Assembly (NCBI RefSeq): GCF_019823065.1
Contig: NZ_CP081966.1
Location: 1,202,001-1,266,000, forward strand
Direction of reading: 5' to 3'
DNA: 64,000 bases
Source: Pseudomonas mosselii
GTDB lineage: Bacteria > Pseudomonadota > Gammaproteobacteria > Pseudomonadales > Pseudomonadaceae
Below the pieces are notes generated by a model, which was not told the DNA's origin, searched no databases, and saw nothing but the letters and a program-made list of their open reading frames with translations. The translations under genes were made by a program, and so were the position numbers. Position 1 is the stretch's first letter; each line of letters starts with the position of its first letter. Below are positions 59,802-60,745 of this stretch, piece after piece.

Positions 59802-59930
59802 TCGACCTCGCCTGGACCTACAGCACCTTCCCCGTTTCGGTTAGGCCGTTTCCGAAAGAGCTTTTCTGAGTATGTTGCAGCCTTCCTGGCACCTAGTCTG
59901 GCTTGTGGTGACGCCCGTCGGCGTTACTGG

Positions 59931-59966
59931 GTTGTCACTTGACAACCTTCTTCCCATGCCCATACT
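59931..59966 (+). promoter_or_regulatory. Promoter-like region with inverted repeat ahead of the HicA-like operon
   Basis: The inverted repeat GTTGTC-ACTT-GACAAC (59931-59946) contains a perfect -35 hexamer TTGACA (59939-59944). A -10-like CATACT follows 16 bases later (59961-59966). The site lies 33-48 bp upstream of ATG 59979. Overlap of the repeat with the -35 is typical of an autorepressed toxin-antitoxin operon. A start close to the ATG would shorten the leader past the GGAG ribosome site (59967-59970), so the exact transcription start is uncertain. Confidence 0.5.
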
Positions 59967-59978
59967 GGAGCTCAATCG

Positions 59979-60251
59979 ATGGCCCGTCCCCTCCATCCAA
60001 ACAAGGAAGTCGAGCAGTCCTTGGCACACGCTGAGGCGCAGGGCTGGAAAGTCACGGTGCGGGGCGGCCACTGCTGGGGGCGGATCTATTGCCCCAACAA
60101 CGACCGCGAATGCCGCTGTGGCGAGTTCTGCATCACCAGCGTGTGGAGCACACCCAGAAATCCGGGCACCTTCGCTCGCCAGTTGCGCCGGGTCGTGGAC
60201 AACTGCACATCGATGCGCGGGATCGTCAAACAGCCAGTGGAGCGAAAGTGA
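59979..60251 (+). CDS. HicA-like small protein (possible atypical toxin)
   Basis: The 90-residue protein resembles the HicA double-stranded-RNA-binding-like fold: an early helix (EVEQSLAHAEAQGWKV), then the GGHCWGRI strand where HicA has its G-[SG]-H catalytic motif, and a C-terminal helix (NPGTFARQLRRVVDNC). It has an insertion with five closely spaced cysteines (HCWGRIYC, then ECRCGEFC), a possible zinc site not found in standard HicA. ATG 59979 follows GGAG by 8 bases. The stop shares its last base with the start of the next gene (TGATG), so both are coupled. Toxicity is not shown by sequence alone. Confidence 0.6.
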   Translation: MARPLHPNKEVEQSLAHAEAQGWKVTVRGGHCWGRIYCPNNDRECRCGEFCITSVWSTPRNPGTFARQLRRVVDNCTSMRGIVKQPVERK

Positions 60252-60745
60252 TGGAGTACGAATTCACCCTCAAGTACCAATTGCACGACGGTGTGGACGT
60301 CGATGCACTGATCGAGCTTCTGGGAGAGGCCGGTTGCGATGACGCGGTGGTCGGTAGTGGTCAGCCCGGACGCCTGGCCCTGGCTTTCTCCCGCGAGGGC
60401 AAGACTGCGCGGGAAGCGGTGCACAGCGCCCTGGAGAATGTCCGGCAGGTCTTGCCGGAGGCCCGCCTGATCGAAGCCAGTCCTGACCTGGTCGGCCTGA
60501 CCGATGTGGCGACGCTGGTGGGGGTGTCCCGACAGAACATGCGCAAGCTCATGCTCACGCATCACCGCACTTTCCCGGCCCCGGTGCATGACGGCAGCCT
60601 TTCGCTCTGGCACCTGGCCGACATCCTGGCCTGGATGCAGGAACGTGGTACCCACGCCGTGGGCCAGGCGCTTCACGAACTGGCTGTCGTGGCGATGCAG
60701 GTGAATGTCGCCAGGGCCCAGGAACGGGTGGCGAGTGGCAGGTGA
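60251..60745 (+). CDS. HTH protein coupled to the HicA-like gene (possible antitoxin/regulator)
   Basis: The 164-residue protein has an N-terminal alpha/beta domain of about 70 residues (MEYEFTLKYQLHDGVDVDAL, then GQPGRLALAFSREGKTAREA) reminiscent of HicB-type partly degraded RNase H folds, and a central helix-turn-helix of the AlpA/MerR-like kind (LVGLTDVATLVGVSRQNMRK) followed by a helical tail (SLWHLADILAWMQERG). It starts on the last base of the preceding gene's stop. A HicB-like function (binding the toxin and repressing the operon) is inferred; an independent DNA-binding regulator is the alternative. It is convergent with the TonB receptor gene, 33 bp away. Confidence 0.6.
   Translation: MEYEFTLKYQLHDGVDVDALIELLGEAGCDDAVVGSGQPGRLALAFSREGKTAREAVHSALENVRQVLPEARLIEASPDLVGLTDVATLVGVSRQNMRKLMLTHHRTFPAPVHDGSLSLWHLADILAWMQERGTHAVGQALHELAVVAMQVNVARAQERVASGR

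Follow-up and report, generated by a model that had tools for sequence, protein, structure and literature searches.

The 64,000-nt stretch of Pseudomonas mosselii DNA analyzed here (contig NZ_CP081966.1, positions 1,202,001 to 1,266,000; hereafter “the window”) contains two adjacent genes, A and B, that are best explained as a HicA-like, autoregulated module of the toxin-antitoxin type, one that mobile elements have recruited and that is present as a stand-alone chromosomal pair in this Pseudomonas group. We give this explanation a probability of roughly 55%. An earlier note, made from the sequence alone, had described a coupled pair with a TGATG overlap, preceded by a palindrome over TTGACA, and had likened this layout to that of a type II toxin-antitoxin operon. 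The coordinates and features of the pair match that description, and the comparison with type II systems is supported by the constant co-occurrence of A and B as well as by the palindrome over the promoter. The order of the genes is that of hicAB, with the toxin-like gene first and a partner carrying a helix-turn-helix (HTH) second.

Evidence that A and B form a unit comes from their relatives. Searches with single sequences returned 480 A and 3034 B relatives, and a search with a profile of A returned 3350; for each, the best 120 were listed. Of at least 578 loci confirmed by scanning GTDB genomes, the 80 best matches were examined together with two viral contigs and the window locus, 83 in all. 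B lies directly after A in all 83, so that the co-occurrence in other genomes that the earlier note had proposed to survey was found. When a divergent PADLOC model was used instead, A was found in 17 of 299 Pseudomonadota genomes, including that of the window, with B adjoining in every case; A is broken at two of these loci (L171 and L178). Searches starting from B gave the same picture: each of the 15 strong loci examined has A, whole or in part, directly before B. No A was detectable at two weak B matches (one of them 290 nt from a contig end) or at a truncated second B copy in genome G023. Full-length B (E < 1e-50) is present in 6 of 36 Pseudomonas genomes, again counting the window's own, and A-like sequences are found on 213 plasmid records (E 1e-3). 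The pair is under purifying selection at its chromosomal site: the ratio of nonsynonymous to synonymous substitution rates, calculated without a significance test, is 0.04–0.22 among six loci (the window locus and L002–L006).

Additional evidence came from the operator. The core GTTGTC-N4-GACAAC, with at least 11 of 12 matches, lies upstream of A in 82 of the 83 loci, and 81 of these 82 have an exact TTGACA. Among the 81, the best -10 box is CATACT, AATACT or GATACT in 68, and its spacing from the -35 box is 17 in 64. The window's 6.35 Mb genome has a single perfect core, and the next best sites there have one mismatch. On a cyanobacterial plasmid the operator is kept as GGTTGTCAGTTGACAACC, and a roseobacter plasmid keeps a shorter version. 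The sequence GTTGAC-N4-GTCAAC, or a near form of it, lies over TTGACA in the phage-plasmid Cyrano and in several divergent chromosomal members, and phage SSU5 has an imperfect version; neither operator form was found at L173 or L176. The sole locus of the 83 that lacks the core at the expected place is a divergent A-B pair on a viral contig (L083, 10001–10741), for which the start codon used may be wrong. Given the conserved operator and the HTH of B, B is predicted to bind as a dimer to the palindrome that covers the -35 box, repressing the operon that encodes it.

The TGATG overlap between the genes is uncommon in the family. In the window, the stop codon TGA of A and the start codon ATG of B share the base A at 60251; a 1-base overlap of this kind is present in 10 of the 83 loci, whereas the start of B is 4 nt downstream of the A stop in 55. 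A Shine-Dalgarno (SD)-like motif was found in 73 of 82 loci. In the main clade this GGAG motif abuts the -10 box, and transcription therefore probably starts downstream of it. In the window, where CATACT runs straight into GGAG (59961–59970), the SD of A would then probably be upstream of the transcription start, and less A would be translated from the pair's own promoter. For E. coli hicAB, PMC10865869 describes one promoter that gives an antitoxin-only transcript. By analogy, a similar antitoxin-favoring arrangement may exist in the main clade; the phage-plasmid members, as read, differ.

A is HicA-like but falls outside the HicA family PF07927, and the resemblance proposed in the earlier note is thus upheld for the predicted fold and the catalytic position, but not for family membership. 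The AlphaFold model of A is alpha-beta-beta-beta-alpha, with helices at residues 9–20 and 62–75 and strands at 24–27, 32–37 and 52–56 according to DSSP; confidence is low over residues 41–50 and the tail. This order of elements is the HicA topology as given in PMC10865869. Solved HicAs are the best whole-target Foldseek matches for the model, 6g26 being the top match, with low scores that are tied with those of aminotransferase domains: the rows labeled VIA include five chains titled HicA or toxin-antitoxin (5yrz, 6g26, 4p78, 6hpb and 4c26), most of each target being aligned. The same rows hold 1whz, which we take to be a HicA as well. His31, at the position of the HicA catalytic histidine, is invariant among 50 close relatives and in a wider alignment of 15 sequences (6 close relatives and 9 of the 17 divergent-model loci).

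The profile comparisons with HicA depend on which sequences are used. Close relatives of A alone gave a probability of 3.2%. With divergent members of A included, comparison with 22 HicAs carrying the G-S/T-H motif (one misread locus having been dropped) gave a score of 23.9 that none of 300 shuffles reached. Because choosing HicAs by motif favors a match, we rely on a weaker comparison, with 28 of 30 fetched PF07927 proteins from Pseudomonas, which gave a score of 21.1 and a probability of 15%. One of 300 column shuffles reached this score (21.3; the next was 15.7; mean 9.95, standard deviation 2.06). The register places G22-W23 on the HicA GW and H31 on the HicA GSH. Assignment of A to HicA by sequence was rejected. 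The hidden Markov model search against PF07927 suggested by the earlier note gave no match, A having none in Pfam at E up to 10, and global alignment of A with HicA profiles found nothing. Five divergent A proteins likewise gave no HicA match in Pfam, and PF07927 has no match in the window's own genome versus matches in 23 of 36 Pseudomonas genomes.

Other candidate relationships of A were considered. Sub-threshold Pfam matches to the RuBisCO small subunit in three of the five divergent proteins (L175, L177 and L206; best E 0.003) were rejected as probably due to chance. A PDB sequence search with the wider alignment returned weak matches to thioredoxin reductase (best E 0.065). Residues 15–54 have a weak NCBIfam match to positions 251–290 of the telomere-associated protein Tap (E 8.4e-5; 21.5 bits versus a cut-off of 600), which may reflect a shared HicA-like segment. 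In Mycobacterium phage Mao1 (L210, 2501–3033), an A-like gene near a tyrosine integrase lacks His31; the next gene encodes a 98-aa partner, which on visual comparison looks like the N-terminal domain of B without the HTH. The gene product gp91 of phage Adephagia is a tested HicA-like phage toxin (PMC11373665), but it has no sequence relationship to A, and its toxicity is therefore not transferred to A.

The inserted cysteines that the earlier note had singled out are all present (C32, C38, C45, C47 and C51), with a sixth at C76, and the set looks like a metal site. C32 is an alanine in the family consensus; conservation is widest for C38 and C76. The residues invariant among the 50 close relatives are H6, G22, W23, H31, G34, Y37, C38, P39, R46, C47, E49, F50, C51, W56, T58, P59, R71, D74 and C76; those still invariant in the wider set are H6, A18, G22, H31, T58, P59, A66 and C76, and C38 is nearly so. 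The cysteine loop is not common to all relatives of A. The members at L172, L174, L175 and L177, together with those of Cyrano and SSU5, lack CRCGEFC and keep C38 and C76 with a histidine or cysteine in between, while L176 has a shortened loop without C38. Retention of C38 and C76 with an exchangeable His or Cys between them is the pattern expected for a metal site, and the Cys/His loop of A may hold a structural metal ion.

B combines an AlpA-type HTH, as the earlier note had read it, with an N-terminal domain that is not HicB-like, contrary to the other half of that reading. The N-terminus is modeled as beta-alpha-beta-beta-alpha-beta, a ferredoxin-like order, whereas PMC10865869 gives the HicB N-terminus as a partial RNase H fold, beta-beta-beta-alpha-beta. 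In the predicted model, the domain does not fit the HicB fold; the absence of HicB from the fold lists for B was not used as evidence by itself. B does share with HicB a C-terminal DNA-binding domain. In Pfam, B has a sub-threshold match to HTH_17 alone, with Phage_AlpA appearing below threshold in one relative, and a PDB sequence search with B gave no match better than E 0.76. In the mechanism that we favor, the ferredoxin-like domain of B would bind A and mask the active face around His31, and A, once freed, would be an RNase that cleaves RNA of the cell or of a phage.

Mobile elements of several kinds have acquired the pair: guaA islands, where it lies next to an integrase; phage-plasmids of the SSU5 type; and two plasmids, one from a cyanobacterium and one from a roseobacter. 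At 55 of the 83 loci, a sequence matching a tyrosine integrase of 418 aa (so assigned by Pfam) lies upstream of A on the same strand, ending 13–24 or 155–167 nt upstream of the operator core. Where at least 2.2 kb of upstream sequence was available, guaA was found upstream of the integrase at 43 of 48 integrase loci. A tRNA as the integration site was rejected: tRNAs were predicted in 4 of 30 loci, none within 3.9 kb of A, and guaA is the usual site. At L022 and L081, A-B lies 90 and 158 nt past guaA with 18-bp operator arms and no integrase match. Among phages, SSU5 and the phage-plasmid Cyrano also carry the pair. PMC9928086 describes Cyrano/SSU5-type copies, annotated HicA and HicB, as expressed well above the prophage background, and lists distant relatives in E. 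coli LF82 with values of 30 (A) and 14 (B), which we read as fold over local prophage background.

The island setting suggests a different role, in which the pair is a control module of the island: B would be an AlpA/Xis-type excisionase and regulator that switches excision by the integrase, A would be its cofactor, and the defense label given by PADLOC would reflect guilt by association with the cargo. The integrase upstream of A and guaA before it are consistent with this role, as is the match of B to the excisionase/transcriptional regulator family phrog_2620 of PHROGs (8.4e-18; A matches a family of unknown function). In the element GIsul2, which likewise sits at guaA, alpA comes after int, and over-expression of AlpA made mobilization of the element easy to observe; however, the same source reports no significant effect of alpA deletion on integration (PMC9376610). 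The window itself argues against this role. B has the HTH of an AlpA/Xis recombination directionality factor but no cognate integrase at this locus: the window contains no relative of the island integrase, and the four in the same genome are at most 31% identical, the nearest, at 31%, being about 450 kb away. The pair is flanked instead by a methyltransferase and a TonB receptor, and sister loci keep the genes and the operator under selection. The methyltransferase is upstream in 11 of 12 related Pseudomonas loci (L002–L012 and L037; all but L011), and 8 of the 12 have the TonB receptor downstream; among 30 Pseudomonas genomes with the methyltransferase, the pair lies within 1.5 kb of it in two, the window's own and one other. 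Nine divergent pairs (L179–L187) likewise have no guaA or island-integrase relative within 8–13 kb around them, other integrase families not having been searched there. The pair is thus maintained without an island, and we consider a role in island control unlikely.

The islands also raise the possibility of a dedicated anti-phage system rather than a toxin-antitoxin module, with the N-terminal domain of B sensing a phage product and A acting on phage nucleic acid during infection alone. Both proteins match the PADLOC profiles PDC-M06A and PDC-M06B over nearly their full length, as do distant members of the pair. Beyond B, 98 cargo proteins match 322 PADLOC families (1e-10) versus 7 families for 90 host-side proteins; these are counts of families rather than of proteins matched, and no family matches more than 4 of the 98. 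The proteins compared, each of 200–1500 aa, comprised 98 of the 154 downstream ones and 90 of the 173 upstream, taken in locus order up to a residue cap from genes called as longest open reading frames. The matches listed include Qat genes, HamA, PtuA, LmuA, AriA and E1-E2/JAB, which we take to be, beyond Qat, genes of Hachiman, Septu, Lamassu, PARIS and CBASS. In Stenotrophomonas maltophilia, a guaA-flanked site is described as the defense island with the most diverse systems (PMC11680222). The enrichment belongs to the islands, however, and not to the pair. In the window, a Pfam scan recognized no defense gene among five neighbors. Moreover, phage-plasmids carry the pair themselves, and the name PDC-M06, and with it any phage assay, was not found in the literature searched. 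A dedicated anti-phage role is accordingly rather doubtful. A further proposal is that A is non-catalytic and that the two proteins together regulate transcription, A being a metal- or redox-sensing co-repressor. The Cys/His cluster, the constant pairing, the sole perfect operator and the Mao1 protein without His31 are consistent with this proposal, but a single operator copy gives no obvious regulon beyond the pair in this genome, and a sensor would not need the histidine that is invariant in both alignments. We regard it as improbable.

The operator shows a further signal in the islands. At integrase-linked loci, the outer five positions of each arm, beyond the invariant core, vary yet stay complementary. 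For 47 distinct sequences, 85.1% of cells pair versus 54.2% in shuffles, with 72 both-side changes versus 24.4; covariation is 0.785 versus 0.209 (reached in 0 of 500 shuffles) and 0.07–0.12 in slid controls. Relatedness by itself can lift sequences above such shuffles in the absence of structure, but the slid controls do not rise above them. At the 25 loci without a full integrase match, the excess is small: pairing is 50.4% versus 43.7% (29 of 500 shuffles reach it) and covariation 0.351 versus 0.247. Upstream of A in L013–L082 (for example at L043, 9941–9980), the arms covary strongly where an integrase is linked and hardly at all elsewhere. Co-evolving repressor specificity is unlikely to be the cause because near-identical B proteins have different arms: L028 and L029 (identical over the 150 residues compared) and L018 and L019 (99%) differ in their outer arms, and among 43 pairs of loci whose B proteins are at least 95% identical, 19 differ in both arms. 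The covariation would be accounted for either by a hairpin that forms in the integrase transcript or by templated inverted-repeat correction. The mean predicted hairpin energy is -19.5 versus -13.4 kcal/mol. An intrinsic terminator was rejected, with no T-run past the arms (mean 2.1 T in 8 nt). The asymmetry of wobble pairs at integrase-linked loci (21 G:T versus 6 A:C) is weak, because the -35 box fixes one G:T position. One speculative model, to which we assign a low probability, is that the island form of the operator has a dual role: the DNA would be the repressor site of B, and the read-through RNA would form a covarying hairpin just past the integrase stop codon. Binding of the DNA by B and of the hairpin by A, as a protein resembling a double-stranded RNA-binding domain, would couple the toxin-antitoxin unit to integrase expression, sensing and controlling excision.

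Table 1. Features of the A-B pair, with positions counted from the first letter of the window.
Feature	Position	Strand	Basis
Palindromic operator GGTTGTC-ACTT-GACAACC	59930..59947	none	Sequence; core GTTGTC-ACTT-GACAAC at 59931–59946
-35 box TTGACA, within operator	59939..59944	+	Sequence
-10-like box CATACT, 16-nt spacer from -35	59961..59966	+	Sequence
GGAG SD-like motif, abutting -10	59967..59970	+	Sequence; transcription start position inferred
Gene A, 90-aa HicA-like protein, PADLOC PDC-M06A	59979..60251	+	Profile match 1.5e-45; model confidence (pLDDT) 77.5
His31 codon, HicA catalytic His position	60069..60071	+	Invariant in two alignments; profile register with HicA GSH
Gene A codons 38–51, cysteine loop C38-x6-C45-x-C47-x3-C51, putative metal site with C76	60090..60131	+	Alignments; His and Cys interchange among divergent members
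Gene B, 164-aa protein, PADLOC PDC-M06B, predicted operator-binding partner	60251..60745	+	Profile match 5.4e-73; model pLDDT 89.8
B residues 1–78, ferredoxin-like beta-alpha-beta-beta-alpha-beta domain	60251..60484	+	Predicted model, fold comparison
B residues about 80–132, AlpA/excisionase-type HTH	60488..60646	+	Profile match, predicted model
B residues 139–163, long C-terminal helix	60665..60739	+	Predicted model

If the favored explanation is correct, the pair adds a new genetic context and a new kind of antitoxin-like partner for HicA toxins, and it provides a mechanism for an unexplained PADLOC candidate. The short operator, which precedes these two genes in Pseudomonas and as far afield as a cyanobacterial plasmid, would be a handle on how defense-carrying guaA islands are held or released, and the covarying arms make the question of DNA versus RNA directly testable.

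Among known systems, the pair belongs to PDC-M06 of PADLOC, a candidate for which no mechanism was found; PDC systems are computational phage defense candidates from PADLOC-DB v2.0.0 (PMC12988326, PMC10855318). The suggestion in the earlier note of a module “not yet described” is right in part: PADLOC-DB holds both genes, and a distant phage-plasmid relative carries a HicA/HicB label, but no functional test of the pair was found in the literature searched. Searches that combined HicA with zinc and cysteine, or HicA-like proteins with phage defense, gave no paper on the pair by title and abstract. It is neither a PF07927 toxin nor a HicB, although by analogy it probably works like an autoregulated HicAB-type toxin-antitoxin module. 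The closest HicAB arrangement is class 3, in which HicB carries an HTH (Gerdes 2024, PMC10865869); the pair described here differs in lying outside PF07927, in the Cys/His loop and in a ferredoxin-like N-terminus in place of a partial RNase H fold. It is not among the 14 HicA contexts as described in that paper; none of the words AlpA, integrase, cysteine, zinc, ferredoxin and PADLOC occurs in its main text. The AlpA of the GIsul2 island, as described in PMC9376610, shares with B the position after the integrase and the AlpA-type HTH, whereas B has an extra N-terminal domain, a constant small partner in A, and a copy without that integrase. Finally, CYRAN_51 and CYRAN_50 of the Escherichia phage-plasmid Cyrano, annotated HicA and HicB, are homologous to A and B, with the same order and a palindrome over the -35 box; they differ in being 35% and 30% identical to them, in having His in place of the CRCGEFC loop, and in the halves of the operator.
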